The translations under genes and the position numbers were made by a program. A stretch of 37,512 bases of DNA, taken from assembly GCA_023300665.1 (NCBI GenBank), contig JALZUU010000419.1, positions 1 through 37,512 on the forward strand, given 5' to 3'. This document shows, one piece after another, positions 3,837-35,146 of this stretch. The stretch is from Saprospiraceae bacterium (lineage in GTDB: Bacteria > Bacteroidota > Bacteroidia > Chitinophagales > Saprospiraceae). Below the pieces are notes generated by a model. It had not been told where the DNA came from and searched no databases. It saw nothing but the letters and a program-made list of their open reading frames with translations. Each line of letters opens with the position of its first letter. Within the stretch, counting starts at the first letter, position 1.

Positions 3837-3935
3837 ATGTCATATATTTTTAAACATACCCGCTATTTAGACTGTAAATCCATGCGACTTACTGACGGCG
3901 AAGCCTTATTAAAATTTCAAATTATAAATGATTAG
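3837..3935 (+). CDS. Candidate small ORF (32 aa, MSYIFKHTRYLDCKSMRLTDGEALLKFQIIND) overlapping the exporter start
   Basis: ATG directly after the hairpin; open to TAG at 3933-3935, overlapping the next ATG (3928) by 8 nt. No recognised family. Confidence 0.25.
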   Translation: MSYIFKHTRYLDCKSMRLTDGEALLKFQIIND

Positions 3936-6684
3936 ATCAGTTTTTTTTACATTTTCTCTAATACTATTATGCCAATCAATTGGTGCAGCTCAAGAATTAG
4001 ATAATATTCCTATAGATCAGGCTACTATTGACCGTGAACTTGAACGTCGTGGTTTAACTGAAGCAGAAGTAAGATTGAAATTTGAGGAAAAGGGAATTGA
4101 TTTAGATAACGTAACAGCAGATCAGCTTCCAGAATTAGAGGTAACGCTCGATCAGATTATGAAAGAAATTGAAGATGAAAGGAAGGCACTGAAAAACGTT
4201 GCTCAAGAAGCTGAAGGCGAGAAAATCATAGAAGATCAGGCTGCAACTATCGCCAAAGATGCTGGTACTGAAATTCAAGAAGCCGTTGAAGATGGTGCTA
4301 CGGTGGAAGAAGCTATTGCGGAAGAATTAGTAGATCAGGCGCAGGAAGAATTACCACCCACAAATATTTACGGTCAGCAAATTTTTCGAAATAAAACATT
4401 GAAGGTATTTAGCAAATCGGATGATGTTGCTCCATCTCCTTCCTATATTTTAGGACCAGGGGATAAAGTAAATATCTCGATTTGGGGAATTTCCCAAGAA
4501 GATGCAACTTACGAAATTAATCAGTCTGGTTTTATCAAACCGACAGGTATGTCTCGGATTACCTTAAAAGGTATTCCTTATGAAAAAGCAAAATCATTAT
4601 TACAAAGTCGATTTTCAGAATTCTATCGTTTTCGCCCTGAAGAATTTGCGGTAACGATCTCCTATGCACGTACTATCAATGTTAACATCTATGGTGAAGT
4701 TTTTAACCAAGGAAGTTTTACCATCCCTGCGACGAATACTGCATTTAATGCATTAGTCGCTGCCGGAGGACCGACGAATATTGGTAGTGTTAGAAATATA
4801 AAGCTTATTCGTAATAATGGTGGAACTTCAAAAATGGATGTCTACGAGTTTATGAATAATCCGAGTGTTTCAGAAGATTTTCAGTTGTCTAATAATGATG
4901 TAATCTTTGTTTCTGTGGTAGAAAAAATAGTAGAAATAAAAGGAGCTGTTCGTCGCCCGCTAAAATATGAGTTACTAGCCACAGAGCAATTAAAAAACTT
5001 GCTCGATTATGCTGGTGGATTAAAAGAAAACGCTTATAAGACGACGATTCAAGTCAAGCGATTTGAAAATGACAAAGAAAAAATTATTGATGTTAAACTA
5101 GGTGAGTTAATGGGAGGAAGTAGTGATTTTACCTTGTTAAATGGAGATATTGTTACCATTCCTGTAATTCCTACCTCATATCAAAACTTTGCTAGTGCTG
5201 AAGGTGCGGTAGAGCTTCCTGGTCAATTTGAGATCACTAAAGGGATGCGTGTAAGTGATTTGTTACGTAAAGCTGTAATGGCTCGTGATGCACGAACTGA
5301 TTTAGCATATCTAATCCGTGTGCGAGAAGATGGAACAGCTAGTTATGAGCGAGTCAATATTGCAGAAGTCTTAGCGAATTCTGCTGCTCCTAGCAACTAT
5401 GTTCTAACTGACCGAGATCGGTTAAATATCTTATCGCAGAAATCATTTGTTGACGATAACTTAATTGTAACCAGTGGAAAAGTAAGAAACCCACGAGAAA
5501 TAAAATACGATCCAGCGCAGAGTATTCGAGTAGCAGATGCAATCGTATTGAGTGGTGGATTAAAACCTGATGCGACAGATTTCGCTTACATTCGCCGACA
5601 AGTATTCAGCGACCAAAGGGAAACGGAGTACGTCCGAGTGAATTTAGTAAATGCACTATCAGATGCGGCCTCAGGAGATAATCTTGAATTAAAGGCAAAC
5701 GATAAATTAATTATTTATTCTAAGCTTGATTTTCTAGAAAAATCTGTAGTGTCTGTTTCTGGAGCAGTTCGTAGTCCTGGCGAATTTACATATGACGCTT
5801 CTCTTACTCTAACTGATCTATTGACACTTGCCGGCGGTCTAAAAATGCAAGCTGCAACAAATCGAATTGATGTATTTCGAGTGCAAATATTTGAGAATGA
5901 ACCTACCAAAACCGTAGTTGCTACTCTGGAAGTGGATGGTAATAATTTTCAAGTGGATGGTAGTAATTTCGCGTTACAACCCTTTGACCAAATAGCAGTA
6001 CGATCGGTGGCGGATTTTGAGTTGCAGCAGTTGGTGACGCTAAGAGGAGAGGTGAAATTTCCGGGTGTGTATGCATTGTTGGATGATAATGAAAAGTTAG
6101 CGAGTGTGATTAAGCGAGCGGGTGGATTAACGAGAGAAGCATTTGTGGAAGGAGCTATTTTGACCAGAAATATAGAACAAAGAGGTTACGTTGTTTTTCA
6201 GTTGGAGGAGGCAATGAAGAATAGTGCTTCTAATTCGAATATTCTCATGAAGCGGGGGGATGTTTTGGAGATTCCGAAGCAGAAGGATTTGGTGAGGATT
6301 GATTTGGTGAATACACTGGCATCAGAACTCTACGATACCACTATTGTTCGGGAAAAAATGATCAATGTACCTTATGTTAAAGGAAAGTCAGCCAAGTACT
6401 ATATTGATGAGTATGCAGCAGGAATTGGAGAGAATGGAAAGCGGAGATATGTGACCGTTCGGCATCCTAGTGGAGAAATACAGCGGACGAAGAATTTTTT
6501 ATTTTTTAAGAAATATCCGAGAGTGGAGAAGGGGTCAGTAGTGAAGATTGGTCGAAAAGAGGAGAAGCCAGAAAAGTCAAGAAGAGAGCGAGGAGATACG
6601 GATTGGGGGAAGGTGGTAGCGAATAGTATTGCACAGGTAACTGCAGTGTTGAGTTTGGTATTGTTAACCCAAAATTTAGATTAA
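3928..6684 (+). CDS. SLBB-domain polysaccharide export protein (Wza-like outer membrane exporter)
   Basis: Signal peptide; YILGPGDKVNISIWG poly-export motif; repeated SLBB segments (V.GEV..PG.F......L..L...AGG). Confidence 0.95.
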   Translation: MIRSVFFTFSLILLCQSIGAAQELDNIPIDQATIDRELERRGLTEAEVRLKFEEKGIDLDNVTADQLPELEVTLDQIMKEIEDERKALKNVAQEAEGEKIIEDQAATIAKDAGTEIQEAVEDGATVEEAIAEELVDQAQEELPPTNIYGQQIFRNKTLKVFSKSDDVAPSPSYILGPGDKVNISIWGISQEDATYEINQSGFIKPTGMSRITLKGIPYEKAKSLLQSRFSEFYRFRPEEFAVTISYARTINVNIYGEVFNQGSFTIPATNTAFNALVAAGGPTNIGSVRNIKLIRNNGGTSKMDVYEFMNNPSVSEDFQLSNNDVIFVSVVEKIVEIKGAVRRPLKYELLATEQLKNLLDYAGGLKENAYKTTIQVKRFENDKEKIIDVKLGELMGGSSDFTLLNGDIVTIPVIPTSYQNFASAEGAVELPGQFEITKGMRVSDLLRKAVMARDARTDLAYLIRVREDGTASYERVNIAEVLANSAAPSNYVLTDRDRLNILSQKSFVDDNLIVTSGKVRNPREIKYDPAQSIRVADAIVLSGGLKPDATDFAYIRRQVFSDQRETEYVRVNLVNALSDAASGDNLELKANDKLIIYSKLDFLEKSVVSVSGAVRSPGEFTYDASLTLTDLLTLAGGLKMQAATNRIDVFRVQIFENEPTKTVVATLEVDGNNFQVDGSNFALQPFDQIAVRSVADFELQQLVTLRGEVKFPGVYALLDDNEKLASVIKRAGGLTREAFVEGAILTRNIEQRGYVVFQLEEAMKNSASNSNILMKRGDVLEIPKQKDLVRIDLVNTLASELYDTTIVREKMINVPYVKGKSAKYYIDEYAAGIGENGKRRYVTVRHPSGEIQRTKNFLFFKKYPRVEKGSVVKIGRKEEKPEKSRRERGDTDWGKVVANSIAQVTAVLSLVLLTQNLD

Positions 6685-6685
6685 G

Positions 6686-7756
6686 ATGGATGAATTTTCG
6701 AAAAAAGATATGGAGGATGAACTTACATTAAAACAGGTAATTGAATTAGGCAGAGACTATTTTTATGAATTGCTGCGTAGTTGGAAAATTATAATATTGA
6801 TTGTTGTACCATTTGTTTTGTATTTTTTAATCTCTGCAATTGTAAAACCAGTTACTTTTAATGCTTCTCTTACTTTCATGGTAAATGAGGATGAGGGAGG
6901 AGGAGGAGGAATGAGTCAGATTTTTAATACATTTGGATTGCCGGGAATTGCTAGTGGAAAAAATAATTTAGATAAGATCTTAGAATTAGCCCGTTCTCGG
7001 CGAATTATTCAAAATGTAATCTTTAATAAGATATCTATTGATAATAATGAAGATTATATTGCTAATCATATTATCAATATTTATGATTTTCATAAAAAAT
7101 GGAAAAATGATACAACAGGTCTAAAGAACTACCTTTTTGTAAAGGATAGTTTTCCATTATTTACTCGTACTGATAATGCCGCGCTAAAGCGAGTTTACCA
7201 CACAGTGATAGGATCTAAAGGTGTAAAAGGCTTACTAACTACTTCTTATTCTGATGAAACTGGGATCATGGAATTTATAATGGATACGGAAAATGAAAAA
7301 CTTTCAATTGAGTTTTCTAAGATTTTATATGATCGTGTTCTTGAATTTTACGTCAAAAAGACTATTGAAAAACAACAACAGACTTACGATATTATGAGGT
7401 TGAAAATGGATACTATTCTCCAAGAAATGTCTAGTGGGGAATATCAGTTAGCCAATTTTAGAGATCGTAATCTTGGATTATGGTCAGATATGGATAAACT
7501 AAAAGGGGCTCAGTTAAAAAGAGACGTACAGGTGCTTAATGAACGCTATGTTGTTTTATTAAAGAATTTAGAAATCGCTGACTTTACCTTAAAAAATAAG
7601 GTGCCATTCGTACAGCTTATTGACGAACCAATTGCGCCGATTCAACCAGAAGTTGAATCAAAAATTATTGCCATTTTGATTGGAGGTTTTGTAGGAGGTT
7701 TTGTAGCTATTGGGTTTGTTATTATTAGAAAAATATTTAGAGACGCCTTATCTTAA
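6686..7756 (+). CDS. Wzz-type chain-length determinant protein (no kinase domain)
   Basis: N-terminal TM (IIILIVVPFVLYFLISAI), long periplasmic region, C-terminal TM (IIAILIGGFVGGFVAIGFVII) preceded by a Pro-rich stretch. Confidence 0.85.
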   Translation: MDEFSKKDMEDELTLKQVIELGRDYFYELLRSWKIIILIVVPFVLYFLISAIVKPVTFNASLTFMVNEDEGGGGGMSQIFNTFGLPGIASGKNNLDKILELARSRRIIQNVIFNKISIDNNEDYIANHIINIYDFHKKWKNDTTGLKNYLFVKDSFPLFTRTDNAALKRVYHTVIGSKGVKGLLTTSYSDETGIMEFIMDTENEKLSIEFSKILYDRVLEFYVKKTIEKQQQTYDIMRLKMDTILQEMSSGEYQLANFRDRNLGLWSDMDKLKGAQLKRDVQVLNERYVVLLKNLEIADFTLKNKVPFVQLIDEPIAPIQPEVESKIIAILIGGFVGGFVAIGFVIIRKIFRDALS

Positions 7757-7758
7757 TT

Positions 7759-8424
7759 ATGAGAGATTATAAATTTGAAATAGAAATTGTTAAAGAAAAG
7801 ATGGAGGGTTATTTGACCGCTGGTAAAAAAATATTTATCACCTCTTCTTTTCAAACGCATAGTATCCCTATGCTGCACATTTTTTCTGTACTCGCTCCCA
7901 AAATCCCTGTCTATTTTTTGAATACTGGATTTCATTTTCCTGAGACTTATTCTTTTAAAAAACAGATTGAAGATTTACTACATATAAAGGTGGTTTCACT
8001 AGAATCACAGATATCCAAAATAAATCAACGGACTTCCACCGGTAAATTCTACTATGCCTTCAATCCAGATTATTGTTGCCATTTAAATAAAATCTTACCG
8101 CTGGAACCGATTTTAGCTGCTCACGATATATGGATCACCGGAGTGCGAGGTGACCAAAATGCTAATCGTAAAAGTATGGGAATGGAAGCATCAGGTGCCT
8201 TTGATACTTTGCGCTTTCATCCTATGATTAACTGGACTGCGAAAATGATCCACCAGTATCGAAAGGATTTTAATTTGCCAGAGCATCCATTAGAAAAAGA
8301 AGGTTACCTCAGTGTAGGATGTGAACCTTGTACTGAAAAGTATCTAGATGGTTCGCGAGATGGACGTTGGGGAGGAATGAAAAAAAATGAATGTGGACTT
8401 CACATAGAATTAATTAAGAAATGA
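7759..8424 (+). CDS. cysH: APS/PAPS reductase (CysH family) with 4Fe-4S cysteine signature
   Basis: FITSSFQTHSIPML PP-loop position, VYFLNTGFHFPET, DYCCHLNKILPLEP (C106 C107), WITGVRGDQNANR, VGCEPCTEK (C188 C191), C-terminal ECGLH (C212). ATGA overlap with the next gene. Confidence 0.88.
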   Translation: MRDYKFEIEIVKEKMEGYLTAGKKIFITSSFQTHSIPMLHIFSVLAPKIPVYFLNTGFHFPETYSFKKQIEDLLHIKVVSLESQISKINQRTSTGKFYYAFNPDYCCHLNKILPLEPILAAHDIWITGVRGDQNANRKSMGMEASGAFDTLRFHPMINWTAKMIHQYRKDFNLPEHPLEKEGYLSVGCEPCTEKYLDGSRDGRWGGMKKNECGLHIELIKK

Positions 8425-9386
8425 ATATATTAATTACGGGAGGTTGTGGATATATTGGTTATAGTCTTGTAAAGAAAATTATAACTAATAATTCTTCGGA
8501 TAGTATCTTTTTATACGATAATTTGTCGAGTAGAAATATGAATTTCTTTATTGGAGATGAGTTGCCAAACCAAGAAAGATTGACACTTATATTGGGAGAT
8601 ATTTTAGATAATTTCTCTTTGAAAAATACATTACAAGAGAATAATATTGAAGTAGTTATTCATCTGGCAGCAAAAGCATCGACTCCTTTTGCTGATCATG
8701 ATGCTCATTCTTTTGATCAAGTTAATAATTGGGGAACAGCTTGTTTAGTTGATGCAATCGAAAGTACTCCATCTGTTAAAAAAGTGATTTATTTGAGTAG
8801 TATCTCTGTCTATGGCCACTCTCAAGGTGAAATTGTAACAGAACAAACTATTCCTGGACCGAAAACTTTTTATGGTATTTCTAAGTTGAGAGGTGAAAAA
8901 CACATTCAAAGATTGTCAAAAAATCATGATACTTACGTTATTCGTGCTGGGAATGTTTTTGGATATAATCCATGTATCCGAATTCAGTCGGTTTTTAATA
9001 AATTAGTTTTTGAAGCTCATTTTAAGAAAAGGATTGAACTTCATGGTTCCGGATTACAAAATAGAGCATTTGTACATGTATTATCATTAGCAAACGTTTT
9101 GTCTGAATTAGCCTTAGGAAATGCTACTTTTCCACGTTTGTTTAATAAGTATGATTGTAATCTTTCAATATTAAATATTGTCGAACATATTTTAGACGTA
9201 TATCCAGAAACAGAAAGAATTTTTATCGATCAGCATCTAGAGATGAGAAATGTAAAAGCAGGTTCAAAAAACATTGCCAATCCGATAATAACTAAAGAAC
9301 AACTAATAAATTATATTCAAGAGATATCAAATAATTTTACCTTTTCATCTAAAAAAACATCATATGAAGAATCTTTGGGAAAATAA
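8421..9386 (+). CDS. NAD-dependent epimerase/dehydratase (extended SDR, GalE-like)
   Basis: ITGGCGYIGYSLV Rossmann motif, HLAAKAS, YLSSISVYG, YGISK active-site motif. Confidence 0.9.
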   Translation: MNILITGGCGYIGYSLVKKIITNNSSDSIFLYDNLSSRNMNFFIGDELPNQERLTLILGDILDNFSLKNTLQENNIEVVIHLAAKASTPFADHDAHSFDQVNNWGTACLVDAIESTPSVKKVIYLSSISVYGHSQGEIVTEQTIPGPKTFYGISKLRGEKHIQRLSKNHDTYVIRAGNVFGYNPCIRIQSVFNKLVFEAHFKKRIELHGSGLQNRAFVHVLSLANVLSELALGNATFPRLFNKYDCNLSILNIVEHILDVYPETERIFIDQHLEMRNVKAGSKNIANPIITKEQLINYIQEISNNFTFSSKKTSYEESLGK

Positions 9387-10413
9387 AAAAGTGCTGATCA
9401 CAGGTGTGTGTGGAACAGTAGGGGCCGAGTTGTTAAAACAATTGCTCGATATGGATGTAGAATCCATTGTTGGGATTGATAGTAACGAAAGCGAATTGTT
9501 TTTTGCGACTCAACCTTTTCAAAATAATGATAAAATAAACTTTTATTTATGTGATATTACCAATAAATCTGAAATGAGGAGGTTGCTTAAAAATGTAGAT
9601 ATTGTATTGCATGCTGCTGCTCGTAAACATGTGATTCTTTGTGAAAAGTCTCCTTCTGAAGCAGTCCGTACAAATATTGTTGGAACACAAACATTAATTG
9701 ATGTTGCTTTAGAAATGGAAGTCGAAAGAGTTTTATTTACTTCTTCTGATAAAGCAGTAAATCCAACGAATGTAATGGGTACCTCTAAGTTAATGGGAGA
9801 ACGCTTAATGACCGCTGCGAATGCTTCAAAAAAGGGGCAGTATCCTATTTTCGCTTCTACGCGTTTTGGAAACGTATTAGGTTCTAATGGGTCGGTTATT
9901 CCTTTATTCAAAAAACAAATATTGAATGGTGGACCAGTGACTTTAACAGATGAAAAGATGAGTCGTTTTGTAATGACTATTGAAGAAGCAGCTAAGATGG
10001 TTTTACAATCTGTCTTTTTAGCTCATGGGGGAGAAGTATTTGTTACAAAGATGCCGATTATTCAAATTAAAGATTTGGCAACTTCTATGATTGATATCAT
10101 AAAAGAGAAAGAAGATATTCTTACAGGTATCGATATTACAATAATTGGAGCGAAAGCTGGAGAAAAAATGTACGAGGAATTAATCAGTGACGAAGAAATT
10201 CGACGTACAGTAGAGATAGAAAATTTCTTTGCGGTACTACCGGCATTTAAGTCTGTTTACAAGGATATTGAATATACCTTCAATGGAATGAAGCAAACTA
10301 AAGTTAATAAAATGTATCGTTCTGATTTGGAGCCCTCAATGAATGGGCAAGAGTTAAAGGACTACCTAATAGAAGAAGAATTGTTGTATAGGAAGGATCA
10401 GGTTAAAGTGTAG
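9364..10413 (+). CDS. CapD/FlaA1-type soluble nucleotide-sugar 4,6-dehydratase
   Basis: KKVLITGVCGTVGAELLKQLL, AAARKHVILCEKSPSEAVRTNIVGTQTL, TSSDKAVNPTNVMGTSKLMGERL (Met in place of the catalytic Tyr), RFGNVLGSNGSVIPLFKKQI. Confidence 0.9.
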   Translation: MKNLWENKKVLITGVCGTVGAELLKQLLDMDVESIVGIDSNESELFFATQPFQNNDKINFYLCDITNKSEMRRLLKNVDIVLHAAARKHVILCEKSPSEAVRTNIVGTQTLIDVALEMEVERVLFTSSDKAVNPTNVMGTSKLMGERLMTAANASKKGQYPIFASTRFGNVLGSNGSVIPLFKKQILNGGPVTLTDEKMSRFVMTIEEAAKMVLQSVFLAHGGEVFVTKMPIIQIKDLATSMIDIIKEKEDILTGIDITIIGAKAGEKMYEELISDEEIRRTVEIENFFAVLPAFKSVYKDIEYTFNGMKQTKVNKMYRSDLEPSMNGQELKDYLIEEELLYRKDQVKV

Positions 10414-10453
10414 AAGCTAACTAATTTTATAATACTATTATCTTGACGTACCT

Positions 10454-10531
10454 GAGTTTTGAAATTTTAATAATGTCAAATGAGCTGGAGTTGCTCTGGT
10501 GATGAGATTGTAATCATTCTTTTCAAAACTC
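10454..10531. repeat. Intergenic inverted repeat, 11-bp arms GAGTTTTGAAA / TTTCAAAACTC
   Basis: Perfect arms at 10454-10464 and 10521-10531, enclosing a smaller GAGC...GCTC hairpin. Confidence 0.6.
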
Positions 10532-10571
10532 TAACCTTGTCAAATAATTTATACCTTCAAAAAAAATATCA

Positions 10572-11339
10572 ATGTCAAATTTAACAAATTTATTTTACCG
10601 AATTCAATTTAAATTACTTAGGCTTTTTCCATTCTCAATCAATTCTTTGGTGCGAATAAAATCAGGTCCCCTAAAAGGATACAAATTTTGTGTAGGTGCC
10701 GGGAATGATTTTCTTTTTGGTACTTACGAAGAGGATGCCTTAAAGACCTTTTTGAGTAAAATAAAAGAGAACGATGTAATCTATGACTTGGGAGCAAATG
10801 CTGGCTATCATTCTTTGGCTATGGCAAATAAGACCAAGAATTCGATTTATGCTTTTGAACCTTTTCCGCTAAATATTTTTCGTTTGAAAAAACATCTTGA
10901 AGCTAACAAGGTTAACAATGTCATTGTCAAGGAAATGGCTGTTTCAGATAAATTGGGAGTTATTGAATTTTCGAATGTACCAAAATTGGGAGGAAATACC
11001 TACATCACTGAATCGAAAAACTTCAAAGATACTTCAAACATACTGAAAGTAAACACCACGAGTATTGATGAGCTAGTATTTGGTGACAACAAAATTAATC
11101 CTCCACAAATTATGAAAATTGATGTGGAAGGGGCAGAATTTGATGTGCTAAAAGGAGCAGAGAAAACAATAAAGGAATATAAACCTATCCTCTTATTGGC
11201 TACTCACGATATGCATCTACCCGGAGTGAAAGATAAATGCCTCGATTTCTTAAAGCGTCTTGAATATAAAGTTGAAAAGACCGATGAAGTCAAAGGGGCT
11301 CATCACGATATTGAAGACTTTATCGCTTATCCCAATTAG
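10572..11339 (+). CDS. FkbM-family methyltransferase
   Basis: VIYDLGANAGYHSLAMA SAM-binding motif, FEPFPLNIFRLKKHL, MKIDVEGAEFDVLKGAE. Confidence 0.9.
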   Translation: MSNLTNLFYRIQFKLLRLFPFSINSLVRIKSGPLKGYKFCVGAGNDFLFGTYEEDALKTFLSKIKENDVIYDLGANAGYHSLAMANKTKNSIYAFEPFPLNIFRLKKHLEANKVNNVIVKEMAVSDKLGVIEFSNVPKLGGNTYITESKNFKDTSNILKVNTTSIDELVFGDNKINPPQIMKIDVEGAEFDVLKGAEKTIKEYKPILLLATHDMHLPGVKDKCLDFLKRLEYKVEKTDEVKGAHHDIEDFIAYPN

Positions 11340-11457
11340 ATTAAAATCATTTAGTATATATTAATAATACTTGTTACCGAAATTATTTAGAATTATTTCA
11401 TTCTCTCGGTCTGGTATAACTTGACTATCATTCTATTATCAAAATCAATCTTTAATT

Positions 11458-12609
11458 ATGCGAATTATTATACTTGGAGCAGATGGCTACTTAGGTTGGC
11501 CAACCTCTATGGATTTGGCAGCTAAAGGCCATGAAGTACTAGCTATCGATAACTATTCTCGTCGAACGATTGCTATGCAAACCTCTTCGGAGGCTTTAAT
11601 CCCAACTCCAAACCTAGAAGATCGGGTAAAATTGTTTCGGTCCCTAACTGGAAAAGAAATTAAAGTTTCTATTGGTGATTTAAAAGACTATCATTTTTTA
11701 GAAAATCACATTAAAGAATTTCAGCCTGATGCAGTGGTTCATTATGCAGAACAACCGTCAGCTCCTTATTCTTTGAAAGGATATGAAGAAGCACATTATA
11801 CACTGAAAAACAACCTAGAGGTAACTCACAACTTAATTTGGGCTATTTTAAAAAATAAACCAAAATGTCACATCGTAAAATTAGGAACGATGGGAGAATA
11901 TGGTTGTCCAAATATTGATATAGAAGAAGGTTGGTTAGAAATCGAACACAAGGGACGAAAAGATAAATTTTTATTCCCACGAGCTGCTGGTAGTTTGTAT
12001 CACACAACAAAAGTATTAGATACGGATTTACTTTGGTTTTATGTGCGAACGTATGATCTAAAAGTCACAGATTTGATGCAAGGTCCTGTTTATGGTTTAT
12101 CAACTAAGGAATCTGATTTAGATGATCGTTTATTACCTAACTTCCATTATGATGATATTTTTGGAACAGTGGTGAATCGATTTTTAGTTCAAGGAGTAGC
12201 AGGAGTACCACTAACAGTATATGGAAAAGGAGGCCAAGTACGAGGTTATCTTAACCTAAAAGATACTTTACAATGTGTAGAACTGGCAATCAATAATCCA
12301 GCTGGAGAGCGAGAATTGAAAATTTATAATCAGTTAACAGAGACTTTTTCAGTCAATGAACTAGCTGCAAAGGTTCAAGAAGCAGGTAAGTTAGTAGGTG
12401 TAAATGTTGAAGTAAAATCAATTCCTAACCCAAGAAGAGAACCAGAAGATCATTACTACAATCCAACATGTACTGGCTTGATAGATCTTGGTTTAGAACC
12501 AAACTTTATGACTCCAGAAGTCTTAGCGGATATGATGAAGATCGCATTGAAATATAAAGATAATATTGATGATAGTAAGATTTTTCCACGTGTAAAATGG
12601 AGTAAATAA
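11458..12609 (+). CDS. sqdB: UDP-sulfoquinovose synthase-like (SQD1/SqdB/Agl3 family)
   Basis: GADGYLGWPTSMDLA, NYSRR, VVHYAEQPSAPYSL, HNN-like NNLEVTHNLI, HIVKLGTMGEYGCPNIDIEEGWLEIEHKGR, SLYHTTKVLDT (T144/Y181/K185 catalytic triad), LTVYGKGGQVRGYLNLKDTLQCVELAI, NPRREPEDHYYN; aligns along its full length with remembered plant SQD1. Confidence 0.93.
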   Translation: MRIIILGADGYLGWPTSMDLAAKGHEVLAIDNYSRRTIAMQTSSEALIPTPNLEDRVKLFRSLTGKEIKVSIGDLKDYHFLENHIKEFQPDAVVHYAEQPSAPYSLKGYEEAHYTLKNNLEVTHNLIWAILKNKPKCHIVKLGTMGEYGCPNIDIEEGWLEIEHKGRKDKFLFPRAAGSLYHTTKVLDTDLLWFYVRTYDLKVTDLMQGPVYGLSTKESDLDDRLLPNFHYDDIFGTVVNRFLVQGVAGVPLTVYGKGGQVRGYLNLKDTLQCVELAINNPAGERELKIYNQLTETFSVNELAAKVQEAGKLVGVNVEVKSIPNPRREPEDHYYNPTCTGLIDLGLEPNFMTPEVLADMMKIALKYKDNIDDSKIFPRVKWSK

Positions 12610-13595
12610 TGAATTGGTTAATAACAGGAGGGTGTGGGTTTATTGGTAAAAATTTACTTAGACACCTTTTATCAAAAGATGAAAATCTTAAAATTAGGAT
12701 AGTAGACAATTTTTCAGTAGGTCAGATTTCAGACCTTACTTATGCAACGTCAAATGTTGATGTTGCCGGTGTTGCTACTGCTCTTGATTGGGAAAAAAAT
12801 GTTCAAATTATAGAAGGAGATATCACTGATTCTCCTTTGATGGAATTAGTAACAAAAGGAGCTGATGTAGTAGTTCATTTGGCTGCGAATACAGGGGTTG
12901 GACCTTCTGTAGAAAATCCAAGAATGGATTGTGTAACAAATGTTTTAGGAACTTTTAATGTTTTGGAAGGATGTCGTGCCAATGGAGTAAAGCGATTTGT
13001 TTTTGCATCGAGTGGTGCTCCAATAGGAGAATGTACTCCTCCTATTCATGAAGAATTAGCGTGTCATCCGGTGTCCCCTTACGGAGCTAGTAAAATGGCC
13101 GGTGAAGGATATTGTTCATCTTATTTCCGTACATTTGGTTTAGGAACAGTTGCCTTAAGATTCGGAAATGTTTATGGTCCTGGATCTACTCATAAAAGTA
13201 GTGTTGTAGCCAAATTTATTCGACAGGGATTAAACGGAGAAACCTTAGAAATTTATGGAGATGGAACTCAAACAAGAGATTTTATTTTTACGGAAGATTT
13301 AGTGAGTGCTATATGGAATGCGGCCACTATCAAAGGAATAGGTGGTGAAGTTTTTCAAATTGCGACTAATAAAGAAACGACTGTTCTTGAAGTAACTGAA
13401 AAATTAGTAGACGTATTAAAGCGACATGGCGTTCCTAATGTTAAATTAATACATGGTAATAAGAGATTAGGAGATGTGATGCGTAATTTTTCTGATACTA
13501 CTAAAGCAGAGAAAATATTGAAATGGACTTACCAGTATGATTTGGATAAAGGATTGAATGAAACAGTTAACTGGTTTTTAAAAAAAATACGATAG
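12609..13595 (+). CDS. NAD-dependent epimerase/dehydratase (UDP-hexose 4-epimerase-like)
   Basis: ITGGCGFIGKNLLRHLL, VVHLAANTGVGPSVENP, ASSGAPIGE, YGASK, LRFGNVYGP; TAATG overlap with the SQD1-like gene. Confidence 0.9.
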   Translation: MNWLITGGCGFIGKNLLRHLLSKDENLKIRIVDNFSVGQISDLTYATSNVDVAGVATALDWEKNVQIIEGDITDSPLMELVTKGADVVVHLAANTGVGPSVENPRMDCVTNVLGTFNVLEGCRANGVKRFVFASSGAPIGECTPPIHEELACHPVSPYGASKMAGEGYCSSYFRTFGLGTVALRFGNVYGPGSTHKSSVVAKFIRQGLNGETLEIYGDGTQTRDFIFTEDLVSAIWNAATIKGIGGEVFQIATNKETTVLEVTEKLVDVLKRHGVPNVKLIHGNKRLGDVMRNFSDTTKAEKILKWTYQYDLDKGLNETVNWFLKKIR

Positions 13596-15492: not shown

Positions 15493-16854
15493 GTGCTAGG
15501 AAACTCTCTACAAAAACTCATACAAGAGAAATTGGTACAAAAAACCTCTAAGGTATTTATTGTACGAATATTAGGTACAGCACTAGGCTTCCTTGGACAT
15601 GTAGTCCTCGCAAGATTTTTGGGCGTTGAAGAATATGGTACTTACACTTTGGTTTTCTCTTGGCTAATGGTGATCTCATTATTCTCAAGACTTGGTTTTG
15701 ATAATATGGTTATTCGCTTTATTACCAAATATGAAGTAAATAAAGAATTTGGAAAACTAAAAGGACTACTAAAATACTCTAAAAAGGTTATTCTTCAAAT
15801 CAATATTGTAATTGCAATATTGCTTTCCGCAGGCATATATTTATTTGGAGAACACTATTCCCAAAGCCTCAAAAATACCTTTATTTTAGGCTTTATTTTT
15901 TGCCTCCCAATGATTTCAATTGCTTACTTAAAGCAAAGTAATCTTAGTGGATTAAAACTAGTTGGTATTTCTAATATTCCGGTATTGATCATTCGACATC
16001 TTGTTCTGATGTTGATGGTCGTGATTTCTTACTTCAGTATCGGAAAGATAAATGCGCCAATTGTTATGGTACTTAATGCCATTGCTTTTTTTGTTGCTGT
16101 CGTATCTGCTAGTCATTGGATAAGAAAAAATCTTCCATACGTCAATAATAGTATAGAACCAGAGGTCAAAAAAAAATACTGGATACAAGAATCCCTTCCC
16201 TTCCTTGTTTACTCTGGTGCCAACAATATTAGCACAAGAATTGATATTTTACTGCTAGGTTTTTTTGCTTCGTTTGAAGAAATAGGAGTATATTCAGCTG
16301 TGACTAGATTAACTCCATTGTTATCTTTCGTTTTAGGCGTAATTGCAACAACAGTAAAGCCATATATTTCAGATTTTTTTACAAAAAACAACTTAGACCG
16401 CTTGAGAACAGTTGTTTTTTATTCTGTTTTTTCCTCAACAATTTCTTCTTGTTTTATCTTCATCTTCTTCATGTTTTTTGGCAAGTCATTACTAACTTTT
16501 TTTGGCGAAGAATATGTTAGTGGATACAATTATCTGATTTTAATTATTATTGGTCATATGGTTGGAGTACTTACAGGCTTATCTGGCCCTCTGTTAGCCA
16601 TGACTAATCATCAGCGTTTACTCTCAAAAATCGAAATATTTTTCCTCATACTTAATATATTGTTGTCAATTATTGTTGCTACGAAATTTGGAATTATAGG
16701 AATCATTATATCAGGTACCTTTACTTATATTTTAAAAAATATCGTTAATAGTTATTACTGTATTGTCTCAACAACTGTCAATCCTACGATTTTTAACAGG
16801 GAAGGCTTTAAAAAAATCCAATCTTTATTAACCCCTAAAAATAAGGAAAAGTAA
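15493..16854 (+). CDS. Polysaccharide flippase (Wzx/MATE-MVF-like)
   Basis: GTG start; FIVRILGTALGFLGHVVLARFLGVEEYGTYTLVFSWLMVISLFSRLGFDN and 12 or more hydrophobic segments. Confidence 0.92.
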   Translation: MLGNSLQKLIQEKLVQKTSKVFIVRILGTALGFLGHVVLARFLGVEEYGTYTLVFSWLMVISLFSRLGFDNMVIRFITKYEVNKEFGKLKGLLKYSKKVILQINIVIAILLSAGIYLFGEHYSQSLKNTFILGFIFCLPMISIAYLKQSNLSGLKLVGISNIPVLIIRHLVLMLMVVISYFSIGKINAPIVMVLNAIAFFVAVVSASHWIRKNLPYVNNSIEPEVKKKYWIQESLPFLVYSGANNISTRIDILLLGFFASFEEIGVYSAVTRLTPLLSFVLGVIATTVKPYISDFFTKNNLDRLRTVVFYSVFSSTISSCFIFIFFMFFGKSLLTFFGEEYVSGYNYLILIIIGHMVGVLTGLSGPLLAMTNHQRLLSKIEIFFLILNILLSIIVATKFGIIGIIISGTFTYILKNIVNSYYCIVSTTVNPTIFNREGFKKIQSLLTPKNKEK

Positions 16855-20138: not shown

Positions 20139-20936
20139 ATGGCTAAGAACGAAACAAGATCCAAAATTGCAATTAGCACCTCCGCTCTAAAACGATTAGC
20201 ATTATGGCACTTATTTTCTACAAAGCTAGATTTGGTTTTGTTAACTGAGTTTCCTAAGTCTGGTGGTACCTGGCTTTCTAAATTAATTGCTAGCTATTTG
20301 AAGATTCCTTTTCCAGAAAATGAATCTGCAAAATTTGAAAAAGCTTTATTACATGGACATCATGTATATCACCCTAATTTTCATAACTTGATTTGTTTGA
20401 ATAGAGATGGTCGTGATATTTTAGTGTCCTATTATTACCATATGTTTTCTGGAATGAAAGAAATTAAATCCTCGGTAGTAAATGATTTTAGAAAGAATCT
20501 TAATTTCAAAGATTACCAGGATACCAAAGTCAATCTTCCAAAATATATTGAATATATGTTTACTCAATACAATAAAGGAAAATTCAGATTTAGTTGGAGC
20601 GAATTCGTACAATCCTTTTATGGGAAAGAAGACGTAATTCATGTTAAATACGAAGATCTTTTGGCTGATGCTCCTCAAACACTCAACAATATTTTAGTTC
20701 AATTAAATGAAGAACAAGTAGACATAGCAAAAGTAAAGAGCATAGTCAACCGTTTTTCATTTAAAAATCAAACAAACCGCAAGCCAGGAGAGGAAGATAC
20801 AAAAAGCTTTTTGCGAAAAGGTATCGCTGGCGATTGGAAGAATCATTTTTCTCCCAAAGCTTGTCAGGTATTTGATCATTACGCAGGCAAAGAACTGATT
20901 CACCTTGGATATGAAAAAGACCACAACTGGTATTAG
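20139..20936 (+). CDS. Sulfotransferase domain protein (PAPS-dependent)
   Basis: VLLTEFPKSGGTWLSKLIASYL (5'-phosphosulfate-binding loop), LICLNRDGRDILVSYYYHMFSG (3'-phosphate-binding), VKYEDLLAD, C-terminal LRKGIAGDWKNHFSP. Confidence 0.93.
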   Translation: MAKNETRSKIAISTSALKRLALWHLFSTKLDLVLLTEFPKSGGTWLSKLIASYLKIPFPENESAKFEKALLHGHHVYHPNFHNLICLNRDGRDILVSYYYHMFSGMKEIKSSVVNDFRKNLNFKDYQDTKVNLPKYIEYMFTQYNKGKFRFSWSEFVQSFYGKEDVIHVKYEDLLADAPQTLNNILVQLNEEQVDIAKVKSIVNRFSFKNQTNRKPGEEDTKSFLRKGIAGDWKNHFSPKACQVFDHYAGKELIHLGYEKDHNWY

Positions 20937-24666: not shown

Positions 24667-25829
24667 AACGAATTCATTTTTACAATACTTTCGAAATTAC
24701 AGTGCCCATTTGGAATTGGCTATTTCCTTATTTGAAAAAAAATAACATACTTCCATATGCTATTTTATCCTCTGGGAAATATCGAAAAGAAAAGCAGTCT
24801 AAAATTCATGCTTCAACCAAATGGATCTGGGTACCTTCTTTTTTTAAAGATAAAAAACTTTTTAACCATTTATTTTATATTCTTTTTGCTCCTTTTCGAA
24901 TTTTATTCAATAAGGCAGATCTGAACGTATTTTACACACAACCACCTTTTGGCTTACCGATTCTTGCTTTTTTCTCTCGTCTTCGTGGAGTGCCTTATGT
25001 GGCTCATATTATGGATTATCATCCTGATCTACTTTTAGCAAATGGACGGTTAAATAAAGAAGGTTTTCTATATCGAATACTAGATGGAATGTATCTTCGA
25101 GCCTTAAAAAAATCTAAAAGAGTAATCGTTTTAGGATCTTGTATGGAATTACTTTTCTTGTCAAAAGGAATTGCTAAAGAGAAAATTGATACGATTCAAA
25201 ACATCAGTTCCGTTGAAGACTTTAAAGAAAAAAAATCAACGGTAATTCAAAAGTTTAAAGAAAAGTATGGAGCTCAAAATAAACTAATTATTCTTTATGC
25301 AGGAAATATGGGAGTCGCTCATGAATTCCGTACTATGTTGAGTTGTACCAAATTTTTTAAGAAAGAAATTCAGTTTTTTTTTGCCGGAAAAGGAAAACGT
25401 AGAAAAGAAATTGAAGAAATTTTATCAGAGAATGAAACTGATAATATTACCTTGTTTTCTTATTTGCCTGACGACGAATTTGAATTGATTTTGGAAGTGG
25501 CAGATTTTCATTTTATCTCATTGAGAAAAGGGTTTGAAGGAGTAATGGTTCCTAGTAAATTTTACTCTAGTTTAGCTATTGGCAAACCTATTATATTTGA
25601 AGGAAATGAGCTTTCGGAAGTTGCTCAAGCTATTTTAAAATACGATTGTGGCTTGGTAGTGGAGCATTTGAACGAAGCTGAATTGAAAAGAAAATTAAGC
25701 GACTTAGTTCAAAAGAAAATTTCAGTAGATGCTTTAGGTGATAATTCAAAAAAAACTTATAGCAAGCAATTTCATTCTTCTACTTTTAATAAAAAATATT
25801 TAGCTACACTTGAAAAGTGTTTTCAATGA
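24663..25829 (+). CDS. Glycosyltransferase family 4 (WcaI-like)
   Basis: YVAHIMDYHPDLL, KLIILYAGNMGVAHEFRTML, FFAGKGKRRKEIEE, GVMVPSKFYSSLAIGKPIIF. Confidence 0.9.
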   Translation: MKRIHFYNTFEITVPIWNWLFPYLKKNNILPYAILSSGKYRKEKQSKIHASTKWIWVPSFFKDKKLFNHLFYILFAPFRILFNKADLNVFYTQPPFGLPILAFFSRLRGVPYVAHIMDYHPDLLLANGRLNKEGFLYRILDGMYLRALKKSKRVIVLGSCMELLFLSKGIAKEKIDTIQNISSVEDFKEKKSTVIQKFKEKYGAQNKLIILYAGNMGVAHEFRTMLSCTKFFKKEIQFFFAGKGKRRKEIEEILSENETDNITLFSYLPDDEFELILEVADFHFISLRKGFEGVMVPSKFYSSLAIGKPIIFEGNELSEVAQAILKYDCGLVVEHLNEAELKRKLSDLVQKKISVDALGDNSKKTYSKQFHSSTFNKKYLATLEKCFQ

Positions 25830-26689
25830 ATAAAGAAGATATTTCATATATACCAATTATTTTGATAGGTGCAGCCAGGTCAGGTACTAAATTACTGAGA
25901 GATGTAATCAGCACCTCATTGGATGTCGAAAAAATTCCATTTGATATCAATTTTGTTTGGAAATATAATAACGAAAAAATTCCACATGACCTTTTGACAC
26001 AGGATAACTATAACTCCAAAGCAGAAAAATTCATTAAAAAATATTTTAATAAATTTAGTAAAAAAAAACCGTTTTTAATTGAAAAAACAGTTAGTAATAC
26101 TTTGCGAATTGACTTTGTTAGGAGGTTTTTTCCAAACGCAAAGTTTATCTACCTGATTAGAGATGGGAGAGATGTGGTAGAATCCGTAGCAAGACAATGG
26201 GGGACGGCACCAAAAGGTAATTACTTAATTGATAAACTAAAAACCTTTCCATTATCCAAAACACTCTCTTATGGATGGTTGTATGGGACAGACTTAGTGA
26301 AGATTAAACTACTTGGACAACCTTCAGAATCTTATGTATGGGGAGTCAAATACCCGAATTATAAAGTTGATCTAAAAAATGATGATGTACACAGTTTTTG
26401 CTCTAAACAATGGAAATTTTGTATAGAGGAATCTGAAAAACAAATAAAAAATATTCCTACAAATAACTTGATGAAAATTAGATATGAAGATTTTGTTAAA
26501 GATCCATTATCCGAATTTTTAAGGATCGAAAATTTTCTAGGTCTAAATTCTAAAATTAATCGAGAAGAAATAAAAAAAATAAAACCTAATAATGTTGGTA
26601 AAGGTTTTAAAAAATTGACCGAAGAACAGCGAAAGAAAGTATTAAAAATTATAGCACCAACTTTAACTAAACTAAATTACAAAGTCTAA
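25826..26689 (+). CDS. Sulfotransferase family protein
   Basis: ATG 25826; IILIGAARSGTKLLRDVIS (PSB-loop), LIEKTVSNTLRIDFVRRFFPNAKFIYLIRDGRDVVESVARQW, IRYEDFVKDPLSE. Confidence 0.9.
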   Translation: MNKEDISYIPIILIGAARSGTKLLRDVISTSLDVEKIPFDINFVWKYNNEKIPHDLLTQDNYNSKAEKFIKKYFNKFSKKKPFLIEKTVSNTLRIDFVRRFFPNAKFIYLIRDGRDVVESVARQWGTAPKGNYLIDKLKTFPLSKTLSYGWLYGTDLVKIKLLGQPSESYVWGVKYPNYKVDLKNDDVHSFCSKQWKFCIEESEKQIKNIPTNNLMKIRYEDFVKDPLSEFLRIENFLGLNSKINREEIKKIKPNNVGKGFKKLTEEQRKKVLKIIAPTLTKLNYKV

Positions 26690-29126: not shown

Positions 29127-29810
29127 ATGTATAGCATTTTAAAAAGATTTTTTGATTTGGTAGCGGCATTGATAACACTTATTGCTTTATCGCCGTTTTT
29201 AATTCCTATTGTTATTGGTTTACGCCTTACCGGAGAAGGATATATTTGGTATTTTCAGAAAAGAGTTGGGCATAAAAATCAATTTTTTGATATTTGGAAG
29301 TTTGCTACAATGCTTAAAGATAGTCCTAACATGGGAACGGGTAGCCTGACAACTAGAAATGATCCTCGGGTTACACCAATGGGGGGATTCTTACGTAAGA
29401 CAAAAATTAATGAATTGCCTCAGGTAATTAATGTGCTAATTGGTAATATGTCTATCGTAGGACCACGACCACAAATGCAAGTTGATTTTGATATTTATCC
29501 CCAAGAAGTGAAAAAACATATTTATGATAGTGTTCCTGGTATTACTGGAATTGGATCAATTGTTTTTCGGGATGAGGAAGAGTTAATGTCTGAAACAGAT
29601 ATGCCAATTCGTGATTTTTATGTGCAACATATTGCTCCTTATAAGGGAACTTTAGAATTATGGTATCAGGATAATAAATCTTTTATTACTGATACAAAGA
29701 TCATTATCTTAACTGCGTGGGCTATTTTTTTTCCAAAGACGGATTTGACTTATCGATGGTTTCCAAACCTTCCACCAAAACCGGCTATTCTTACCTTACC
29801 AGAAAAGTAA
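29127..29810 (+). CDS. Initiating sugar phosphotransferase (PglC/WcaJ-type)
   Basis: RFFDLVAALITLIALSPFLIPIVIGLRLTGEGYIWYFQKRVG, FATM, TRNDPRVTPMGGFLRKTKINELPQVINVLIGNMSIVGPRPQ, VPGITGIGSI. Confidence 0.94.
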   Translation: MYSILKRFFDLVAALITLIALSPFLIPIVIGLRLTGEGYIWYFQKRVGHKNQFFDIWKFATMLKDSPNMGTGSLTTRNDPRVTPMGGFLRKTKINELPQVINVLIGNMSIVGPRPQMQVDFDIYPQEVKKHIYDSVPGITGIGSIVFRDEEELMSETDMPIRDFYVQHIAPYKGTLELWYQDNKSFITDTKIIILTAWAIFFPKTDLTYRWFPNLPPKPAILTLPEK

Positions 29811-30996: not shown

Positions 30997-32051
30997 TGAA
31001 AAGTAAAATGGTATTGATAGATGCTCTTAACCTGTATAGTAAAGGAGGTAATGGACTGCTTAGATATCTAATTGAAAAATTACAGGAAAATAAAATCTCT
31101 TACGAACTATTATTAGGTGAAAACTTTACTGAATTCCAAAAAAGAATACTCGTTTTTTCTCGTAAAGGAATCATTCGTGAGGCCATAAAACGATGTTCTC
31201 CAACCTGTCTTTTTTGCTTTGGAAATTTCCCAATTCACTTTTCTGTTCCAGATAATATTACCGTAGTCGTAAATTTTCAAAATGCATTCTTATTAAATAA
31301 CAGCAATATTTATGTATTTAATAAGATGGAAAAAATAAAACTTTGGGTTAGAAGAAGCTACCTGAGGTCTTTTGTAAATTATGCTGATTTGTACGTTTTT
31401 CCAACCGAATATATACAAAGTGAGTTTATCGAAGCTTATGCGATTACTCCTCAAAAATGTCGAGTCATTCCATATTTTGATAAAAGACAAGTAGTTGCGA
31501 TCAGAGAAGAGATGAAAGGAAAAGAGAAAATTAAAAATAGTTTTATCTATATTTCTTCCACTTCTAAACATAAAAACCACATCACTTTATTAAGCGCCTG
31601 GGAATTATTAGCAACGCAAAATATATTTCCGCTATTAACGCTTAGTATTCCACTAAATGATTCTCGTTCAGAAGAACACCTGAATCGTATTGCTTTGCTA
31701 AAAACAAAAGGTGCTCAGATAGAAAATATCAATGCACAAGGATATATTCCGTACGAAGAAGTATTGAGGATTTCTGCACAACATGAATTTACGATCTTTC
31801 CTTCATTGAATGAAACCTTCGGATTTGGTAGCATTGAAGGGGCAATTTTGGGAAATAAATTATTGATTAGTGATCGACCTTTTGTTAAAGATGTAACGAT
31901 TCCGTCGCTAAATTTTGATCCTTTAAATGCACAAGATATTGCTGATAAAGTTATCTACGCAATGAATAATACTTTGCCGAAAACTGAATTGGTTTTTAAA
32001 GATAATGTGGATGAATTATTAGAATTATTATCTAATAAAAAAGATGTTTAG
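30996..32051 (+). CDS. Glycosyltransferase family 1/4-like
   Basis: GTG start; VLIDALNLYSKGGNGLLRYLIEKL, YISSTSKHKNHITLLSAWELL, FTIFPSLNETFGFGSIEGAILGNKLLISD. Confidence 0.88.
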   Translation: MKSKMVLIDALNLYSKGGNGLLRYLIEKLQENKISYELLLGENFTEFQKRILVFSRKGIIREAIKRCSPTCLFCFGNFPIHFSVPDNITVVVNFQNAFLLNNSNIYVFNKMEKIKLWVRRSYLRSFVNYADLYVFPTEYIQSEFIEAYAITPQKCRVIPYFDKRQVVAIREEMKGKEKIKNSFIYISSTSKHKNHITLLSAWELLATQNIFPLLTLSIPLNDSRSEEHLNRIALLKTKGAQIENINAQGYIPYEEVLRISAQHEFTIFPSLNETFGFGSIEGAILGNKLLISDRPFVKDVTIPSLNFDPLNAQDIADKVIYAMNNTLPKTELVFKDNVDELLELLSNKKDV

Positions 32052-32844
32052 ATTTCGACATCAATTTAATTTTCTACGCTCGATTCTTAAAGCTGATTTA
32101 TTGCTCTATACCATGGGCAAAACAGGATCAAATAGTTTGTCTTATAGTCTCGAAGAAGAGGGACTAACTGTCGCTAGTAAACACTACTTCGGTGGAGACC
32201 AGCAACATTTTTTTAATAATGAAAAAAAAGGACGGGGAGGAAAAATAAATAAATTCATTATTCGGACATTACTGAACACGACCAATCAGCGTGTAAAAGT
32301 AATAACACTCGTTCGAGACCCAGTTGCGAGAAATTTATCCATGACTTTTTTTGCACTGGATAAAGTTATTTATAAAACCTTACAAAGAATACCAAACGGT
32401 CAGCGAGATGGAGAAATCCTTAGTTTGGACGAAATAATTACAGAAGGATTTATGAATACCATCAATCAAGAAGGACCATTGAATTGGTTTGAGAAAGAGT
32501 TTGATTATGTGTTGAAGGTAGATGCCTTGCAACATCCTTTTGATAAAGAAAAAGGATATACCATTATCCAAAAAGAAAATCTGGATTTGCTTATTTTAAA
32601 ACTAGAAAAATTAAGTGATTTAGAAGAGGTGATTAAATCTTTTTTAAACTTAAGATCGTTTAAATTACTTACCGCCAACTCAGGAAGTAAATATTGGTAT
32701 TCGGATTTATATAAAGATTTCAAAAATCATTTTAAACCGTCAGAAGATTATCTGGACAAAATGTATACGTCAAAATTTGCTACGCACTTTTATTCGGCAA
32801 CGGAGCTAGAAAATTTTCAGTCTCGATGGCGTAAAAATAACTAA
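32044..32844 (+). CDS. Putative capsular polysaccharide synthesis/sulfotransferase-like protein
   Basis: DLLLYTMGKTGSNSLSYSLEE (PSB-loop-like) and VKVITLVRDPVARNLSMTFFALD (3'-PB-like). Confidence 0.75.
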   Translation: MFRFRHQFNFLRSILKADLLLYTMGKTGSNSLSYSLEEEGLTVASKHYFGGDQQHFFNNEKKGRGGKINKFIIRTLLNTTNQRVKVITLVRDPVARNLSMTFFALDKVIYKTLQRIPNGQRDGEILSLDEIITEGFMNTINQEGPLNWFEKEFDYVLKVDALQHPFDKEKGYTIIQKENLDLLILKLEKLSDLEEVIKSFLNLRSFKLLTANSGSKYWYSDLYKDFKNHFKPSEDYLDKMYTSKFATHFYSATELENFQSRWRKNN

Positions 32845-34027: not shown

Positions 34028-35146
34028 ATGAAAAATAAAAAAGCCCTTATCACGGGAATTACTGGACAAGATGGAGCTTATCTCTCTGAACTTTTACTTT
34101 CTAAAGGATACGAAGTACACGGAATCAAACGTCGTGCTTCCTCCTTTAATACAGCTCGTATCGATCACCTTTATCAAGATCCTCACATAGACAATCGTAA
34201 TTTTATTCTTCACTATGGAGATCTAACTGATTCTACTAATTTGATTAGAATCATCCAGGAAATACAACCTAATGAAATCTATAACCTTGGAGCAATGTCT
34301 CATGTAAAGGTAAGCTTCGATGCACCTGAATATACTGCAGATGTCGATGGAGTAGGAACCCTACGGATACTAGAAGCGGTACGTCTACTAGGACTGACCA
34401 AAAAAACTAAAATATATCAGGCTTCTACTTCTGAATTATATGGACTGGTGCAAGAGGTACCTCAAAAGGAAACAACCCCTTTTTATCCTCGATCTCCATA
34501 CGCTGTTGCAAAAATGTACGCTTACTGGATTACCGTTAATTATCGAGAAGCATATGACATGTTTGCTTGTAACGGGATTTTATTCAATCATGAATCTCCA
34601 TTAAGAGGAGAAACATTTGTTACCCGAAAGATCACGAGAGCGGTAGCTAAAATTGGACTTGGGCTACAAAATAAACTCTACCTTGGAAATATGGACGCCA
34701 AACGAGATTGGGGACATGCAAAAGATTATGTGGAGTGTATGTGGAAAATTCTACAACAAGATGAACCCGAAGATTGGGTGATTGCTACTGGAGTAACTAC
34801 AAGTGTACGTGATTTTGTACGCATGTCATTCAAAGAAATAGGTGTCGAACTAGAATTTACCGGTACCGGAGAACAAGAAATAGGTACCATTAAATCTGTT
34901 GCTAAACCTGAATATCAAGGCAAAGTAGGACAAGTAGTGGTAGCGGTTGATCCAGCTTATTATCGACCAACAGAAGTAGAATTATTAATCGGTGATTCTT
35001 CGAAGGCACAGGAAAAATTAAATTGGACACCTAAATATGATTTAGAGGCGCTTTGTAGCGAAATGGTAGCGGCTGATATTGAACTCTTTAAAAGAGATCA
35101 GATACTAAAAAAGGCAGGATTTAAAGTGAACAACGAATTCGAATAG
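34028..35146 (+). CDS. gmd: GDP-mannose 4,6-dehydratase
   Basis: [108 protein letters not shown]. Confidence 0.98.

Follow-up and report, generated by a model that had tools for sequence, protein, structure and literature searches.

Enzymes of the SQD1 family, namely SQD1 of Arabidopsis, SqdB of Rhizobiaceae and Rhodobacterales (sqdBDC) and Agl3 of Sulfolobus acidocaldarius, join sulfite to uridine diphosphate (UDP)-glucose and thereby form UDP-sulfoquinovose, a nucleotide sugar with a carbon-sulfur bond. The carriers of sulfoquinovose-type sugars named in a 2026 review are confined to lipids, those of photosynthetic membranes and some from Bacillus, and to archaeal N-glycans (PMC12890257). 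Here we describe a 37,512-nucleotide stretch of DNA (hereafter the window) from a Saprospiraceae bacterium of the Bacteroidota (assembly GCA_023300665.1, contig JALZUU010000419.1), in which an SQD1-like gene and a gene for a CysH-family reductase of adenosine 5'-phosphosulfate (APS) or 3'-phosphoadenosine 5'-phosphosulfate (PAPS) share one polysaccharide locus. We favour, with moderate confidence, the view that the locus carries a sulfite-fed, SQD1-derived cassette for a C-sulfonated nucleotide sugar destined for exopolysaccharide, possibly one other than UDP-sulfoquinovose. The 5.39 million open papers searched, a set that excludes subscription papers, yielded no account of a polysaccharide cassette joining CysH to SQD1.

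The genes in question are as follows:
7759..8424, + strand: CysH-family APS/PAPS reductase, 221 aa, presumed source of sulfite (PF01507, NF002537 and motifs)
8421..9386, + strand: extended short-chain dehydrogenase/reductase (SDR) of the GalE/RmlB type (QxNxWGT, SSxxVYG and YxxxK), partner of CysH
9364..10413, + strand: Pen/CapE/FnlA-like nucleotide-sugar dehydratase (PF02719), catalytic TSSDKAVNPTNVMGTSK kept
10572..11339, + strand: FkbM-family methyltransferase, between the dehydratase and SQD1-like genes
11458..12609, + strand: SQD1-like SDR, 383 aa, of the HYAEQ-P-SAPYS clade, with GTMGEYG and YHTTK
12609..13595, + strand: GalE/RmlB-like SDR, accessory member

Three genes on the same strand (SDR 8421, dehydratase 9364 and FkbM methyltransferase 10572) thus separate cysH from the SQD1-like gene, and the methyltransferase proved to be a non-conserved member of the cassette when related loci were compared.

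The first-pass annotation of this DNA, made from the letters alone, had reported a CysH-family protein with an iron-sulfur signature and a full-length SQD1-like protein, and was right on the coordinates and motifs of both. The CysH protein matches PF01507 in a Pfam search (E=1.9e-32) and scores 197 bits against the NCBIfam model for phosphoadenylyl-sulfate reductase, NF002537, passing the cut-off of 154. It bears the motifs DYCCHLNK...SVGCEPCT and a C-terminal ECGLH with the catalytic Cys, and the CC, CxxC and ECG residues are invariant among 15 aligned homologues. The score against the APS_reductase subfamily model TIGR02055 was 145 bits, below its cut-off of 235. Judged by its sequence, the protein is of the [4Fe-4S] APS-reductase type and may prefer either APS or PAPS. 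Its closest-linked partner is the SDR at 8421, which the cysH gene adjoins in 14 homologous loci, and not the SQD1-like gene.

The SQD1-like protein aligns over its full length (residues 2-383) with Arabidopsis SQD1 (1qrr; 413 bits, E=1.1e-122, 47% identity), and keeps the catalytic Thr, YxxxK, His95, Met145, Glu147 and Tyr148 (Agl3 numbering). In our tree, the window protein and 80 relatives form one separate clade (81 rows, SH-aLRT 97), across which the tested catalytic residues are retained except Arg101, although a few members, like rhizobial SqdB, have Val in place of Glu147. Activity is therefore probable, and the enzyme may differ from SQD1 in its substrate, its product or its mode of holding sulfite. 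The cut-off of NF041015 (575 bits; window protein, 451) was rejected as a test of SQD1 function and does not discriminate, because an accepted rhizobial SqdB-type protein (S. meliloti; gene arrangement sqdB-sqdD) reaches no more than 332. In another polysaccharide locus (L016:7966-10461), from a genome of the same taxonomic order (G163), we noticed an 831-residue protein whose SQD1-like domain reads AQQCSAPYS, with Cys at the Arg101 position. Its C-terminal half resembles, by eye, a class V aminotransferase/desulfurase (SLHKWMFGPHGSG) and might be a built-in sulfur donor, while Pfam reports the N-terminal epimerase domain only.

The SQD1-like protein was scanned against 85,462 species genomes. 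The best 80 of at least 556 relatives were retained, and these span Bacteroidota, Pseudomonadota, Chloroflexota, Actinomycetota, Thermodesulfobacteriota, Nitrospirota, Planctomycetota, Myxococcota and other phyla. A CysH-family gene occurs within about 10 kb, the DNA examined, in 12 of these 80 loci. Two sets of controls were used, 20 polysaccharide loci around Wza from Bacteroidota of the same class and 33 gammaproteobacterial loci around dehydratase paralogues without SQD1, and cysH was found in none of either (0/20 and 0/33, together 0/53; Fisher p=0.0016). Any sulfate-assimilation gene was present in 17/80 loci versus 2/53 controls (p=0.003). Against the Wza loci alone, a sample too small, the CysH comparison gave p=0.057, and the other 33 loci were added. 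A Poisson estimate from the genome-wide density of CysH (0.33 expected, 12 seen) is given lesser weight, as it ignores the clustering of polysaccharide genes.

The order cysH-SDR-dehydratase-SQD1 recurs in Bacteroidota and Chloroflexota (L017 of genome G180, L019, L020 and, with one small gene inserted, L023). The cysH-SDR pair lies ~9 kb from the SQD1-like gene in L040 and L086, and 13 kb away, beyond the flank used for the count, in L041. Other CysH lineages, PAPS-reductase-like and without the iron-sulfur signature, stand directly beside dehydratase-SQD1 in L025, L045 and L048; a further lineage follows the SQD1-like gene in L085, a truncated remnant adjoins dehydratase-SQD1 in L049, and a CysH-family gene lies 7 kb off in L047. 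The row in L048, consisting of a Sat-CysC fusion, the PAPS reductase, the dehydratase and the SQD1-like gene, reads as a path from sulfate through sulfite to SQD1, and cysC or cysD-cysN is found directly upstream of the SQD1-like gene in L061, L074 and L087. On the CysH tree, the well-supported branches require a minimum of six switches between linkage to SQD1 and its absence, indicating that the link arose repeatedly. In Saprospiraceae, the cysH-SDR pair comes in two lineages, types A and B, and both hold the same position next to SQD1 genes that are close relatives of one another; this favours a genuine functional link in the window locus. The L085 protein (11203-11892, directly 3' of SQD1) is intermediate between CysH and CysD, a PAPS_reduct protein with CC and CxxC and a CysD-like C-terminus.

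The constant partner of the SQD1-like gene is the Pen/CapE-like dehydratase, located at most three genes away in 65/81 loci (window included). Among 229 genomes, dehydratase matches of at least 284 bits had an SQD1-like gene adjacent in all six newly read loci, and those of at most 222 bits had an SQD1 homologue in 1/34; the dehydratase subfamily thus predicts a neighbouring SQD1-like gene. The nearest solved structures are 6bwc, 3vvb, 4j2o and 2gn4, of which the closest, 6bwc, annotated as CapD, is presumably Pen, a UDP-GlcNAc 5,6-dehydratase. An SDR of the type at 12609 stands before or after the SQD1-like gene in about 40% of related loci. The SDR at 8421 is possibly an epimerase or 4-reductase for the sulfonated sugar, and it may itself handle a sulfonated intermediate, because the cysH-SDR pair also occurs without SQD1.

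The window is one contig (C419) of a 5.4 Mb assembly in 796 contigs, estimated to be 87% complete. Two PF01507 proteins were found in it, the window CysH and a CysD encoded in a cysC-cysD-cysN cluster on contig C627, so that the cassette is not 'self-contained' as the first-pass annotation had it: ATP sulfurylase (cysD-cysN) and cysC are on the other contig. The PF01507 search yielded no second CysH in this assembly, and a PF01077 search yielded no sulfite reductase there, the same search being positive in 11/14 control genomes. PF01077 was likewise not found in four other genomes with SQD1-like loci (G299, G300, G301 and G306), three of them with linked cysH. With cysC-cysD-cysN present and sulfite reductase not found, sulfate can be activated and the sulfite that CysH would make has no visible route to sulfide. 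G180, a genome of the same family and 99% complete, has the order GMD-cysH-SDR-dehydratase-SQD1 in a polysaccharide locus, its proteins being 57% (cysH), 44% (SDR), 65% (dehydratase) and 87% (SQD1) identical to those of the window. A second, different CysH (L120) is encoded close to the sulfite reductase of G180, so the locus cysH is an additional copy. As far as the assembly shows, the earlier suspicion that this CysH is not concerned with routine cysteine synthesis is thus borne out. On the C627 cluster (L013, 7285-7876), a small open reading frame between cysD and cysN resembles, by eye, the 23S rRNA intervening-sequence protein family; similar frames are flanked by cysD and cysN in L162 (G327) and lie beside cysN in L168 (G306).

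The features around the cassette are those of an exopolysaccharide locus, as had been proposed:
3928-6684, + strand: polysaccharide export (SLBB/Poly_export) gene, exopolysaccharide context
6686-7756, + strand: GNVR chain-length protein gene, exopolysaccharide context
15493-16854: Polysacc_synt flippase
20139..20936, + strand: sulfotransferase (PF00685, Pfam)
25817-26689: second sulfotransferase (PF13469, Pfam)
29127-29810: sugar transferase
32044-32844: NKWYS capsular gene
34028-35146: GMD

The genes from 3928 to 13595 all lie on the + strand, and beyond them come the genes for the flippase, glycosyltransferases and sulfotransferases, then the sugar transferase and GMD. The cassette is thus surrounded by genes for export, for a flippase, for an initiating sugar transferase and for glycosyltransferases, as in exopolysaccharide loci of the Wza/Wzx type. 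O-sulfation is likely to occur in this locus too, given the two sulfotransferase-family genes and the NKWYS gene.

If the sulfite-fed cassette is genuine, CysD and CysN, encoded on the other contig, would make APS from sulfate, and CysH, going by its family, would reduce APS to sulfite. The SQD1-like enzyme would, with NAD, oxidise a UDP-hexose at C4 and open or accept a 5,6-ene. Sulfite, supplied by CysH as the substrate, would then join C6 of the 4-keto-5,6-ene held by the enzyme to give a C-S bonded UDP-sugar, a step modelled on the mechanism of Agl3/SQD1 (PMC4388408, PMC8987622). Preparing the substrate or completing the sugar would fall to the dehydratase (9364) and to the SDRs 8421 and 12609, and the polysaccharide machinery would polymerise the finished product. 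It is attractive to speculate that the SQD1-like enzymes with Pro at the Arg101 position and the Pen-like dehydratase split the sulfoquinovose-synthase reaction between them: the dehydratase would make the 5,6-ene of UDP-GlcNAc (or UDP-hexose), and the SQD1-like enzyme would oxidise C4, add sulfite at C6 and re-reduce, so that dedicated CysH copies feed the synthesis of a new C-sulfonated (amino) sugar nucleotide, such as 6-sulfo-quinovosamine, for the exopolysaccharides of many phyla. We regard this specific scheme as unlikely and offer it tentatively.

Several observations weigh against a sulfite-fed cassette. Pro occupies the Arg101 position in the window protein and in 80/80 relatives, and the R101A change abolishes activity of the Sulfolobus enzyme Agl3 (PMC4388408). 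Because the replacement is clade-wide, UDP-sulfoquinovose made from UDP-glucose ranks as no more than one candidate; the part of the first-pass annotation that named it as the product is unproven, and the substrate or the product that it gives may be incorrect. A narrower form of the favoured explanation, in which a plain UDP-sulfoquinovose synthase tolerates Pro and ordinary sulfoquinovose enters the polysaccharide, is a possibility that we consider rather less than even; it draws on the full-length similarity to SQD1, on the catalytic residues kept, on a haloarchaeal homologue that shares the Pro (as does L222) and on an operon annotated in Haloquadratum as SqdB plus two GalE homologues (PMC1544339). 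It fits poorly with the inactive Agl3 mutant, with the Arg conserved in plant SQD1 and in six sampled rhizobial, rhodobacterial and actinobacterial homologues, and with the fixed dehydratase partner, which UDP-sulfoquinovose synthesis does not need. Also on the negative side, the examined DNA of 68/80 loci of the clade holds no CysH, and cysH-SDR occurs in five complete genomes (G089, G354, G357, G485 and G588) with no SQD1 homologue. CysH can therefore serve something else, and co-location of cysH with the SDR was rejected as proof, on its own, of a cysH-SQD1 link. These facts, together with the failure to find sulfite reductase in G354, G357 and G485, and with L164, an exopolysaccharide locus with cysH-SDR-cysD-cysN and no SQD1 within the 15 kb read, are what one would expect if two modules merely shared the window locus, one, of CysH and SDR 8421, yielding its own sulfonate with the SDR as the user of sulfite, the other, of the dehydratase, SQD1-like and GalE-like proteins, yielding an unrelated deoxy or keto sugar. 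An SQD1-like enzyme that uses no sulfite would also explain the loss of Arg101. We nevertheless hold such a division to be unlikely, as it leaves unexplained both the SDR-free CysH lineages beside dehydratase-SQD1 (L025, L045, L048 and L085) and the cysC or cysD-cysN genes directly upstream of SQD1 elsewhere. The survey of cysH-sqd1 neighbourhoods recommended at the outset supports local supply of sulfite through the repeated association, its absence from the controls and the row in L048.

The absences in the window's own genome are soft evidence, given an assembly 87% complete, and the window CysH is the sole CysH found there, as would be expected of an ordinary assimilatory reductase placed in the locus by chance. 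That reading is highly improbable in the light of the sulfite reductase missing from the same searches in this and the four other genomes, of the housekeeping CysH that G180 carries additionally and of an association recurring across phyla. Hardly more probable is that sulfate activation serves O-sulfation, with CysH either regulating the APS/PAPS pool or being there as a bystander. The two sulfotransferases of the window do offer activated sulfate another use, and ST1/ST2-like genes occur in about 10 loci of the clade, with cysC near several; O-sulfation, however, requires no reduction of APS or PAPS, and CysH directly adjoins dehydratase-SQD1 in about 10 loci.

Regarding cysH outside SQD1 loci, cysH-SDR lies outside any polysaccharide locus in G089, G357 and G485 (L155, L157 and L158), two of the three genomes also lacking a detected sulfite reductase. 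CysH without the SDR partner was seen in G384 (L134), G490 (L136) and similar Bacteroidota of family f44; in G384 and G490 PF01077 was not found either, suggesting a flow of sulfite into sulfonates, perhaps sulfonolipids. Sulfonolipid (capnine) synthesis was considered for the SQD1-free cysH-SDR genomes, and no matching open paper was found.

Because the pairing of CysH with SQD1-like genes recurs in several phyla, many bacteria may build C-S bonded sugars into their coats. If this is the case, bacterial exopolysaccharide would be a new sulfonate reservoir and a source for sulfoquinovose degraders, and with at least 556 relatives the SQD1-like clade is widespread. The fixed change from Arg to Pro at an essential position also offers a direct way to test how SQD1 enzymes bind sulfite.

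Compared with known systems, the window protein shares with SQD1, SqdB and Agl3 the full-length SDR fold family, GTMGEYG, YHxxK and the residues at the His95, Met145, Glu147 and Tyr148 positions, whereas its separate clade, Pro at Arg101, fixed dehydratase partner and placement in a polysaccharide locus with no sulfolipid partner gene set it apart. The dehydratase keeps the TDKxnMx3K-type catalytic motif of the UDP-GlcNAc dehydratases Pen, CapE, FnlA and PseB, and belongs to a distinct subfamily by the scores given above. The CysH resembles assimilatory [4Fe-4S] APS reductases in its family matches, CC...CxxC and ECGLH; it differs in its polysaccharide locus, its pairing with an SDR and an assembly in which no sulfite reductase gene was found, and the locus-type copy in G180 comes on top of a housekeeping one. 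A further parallel is the Agl3 pathway to the sulfoquinovose of Sulfolobus S-layer and archaellin N-glycans, where an SQD1-family enzyme likewise serves a surface glycan; unlike that pathway, the window is a bacterial locus of the exopolysaccharide type with its own APS reductase adjoining.

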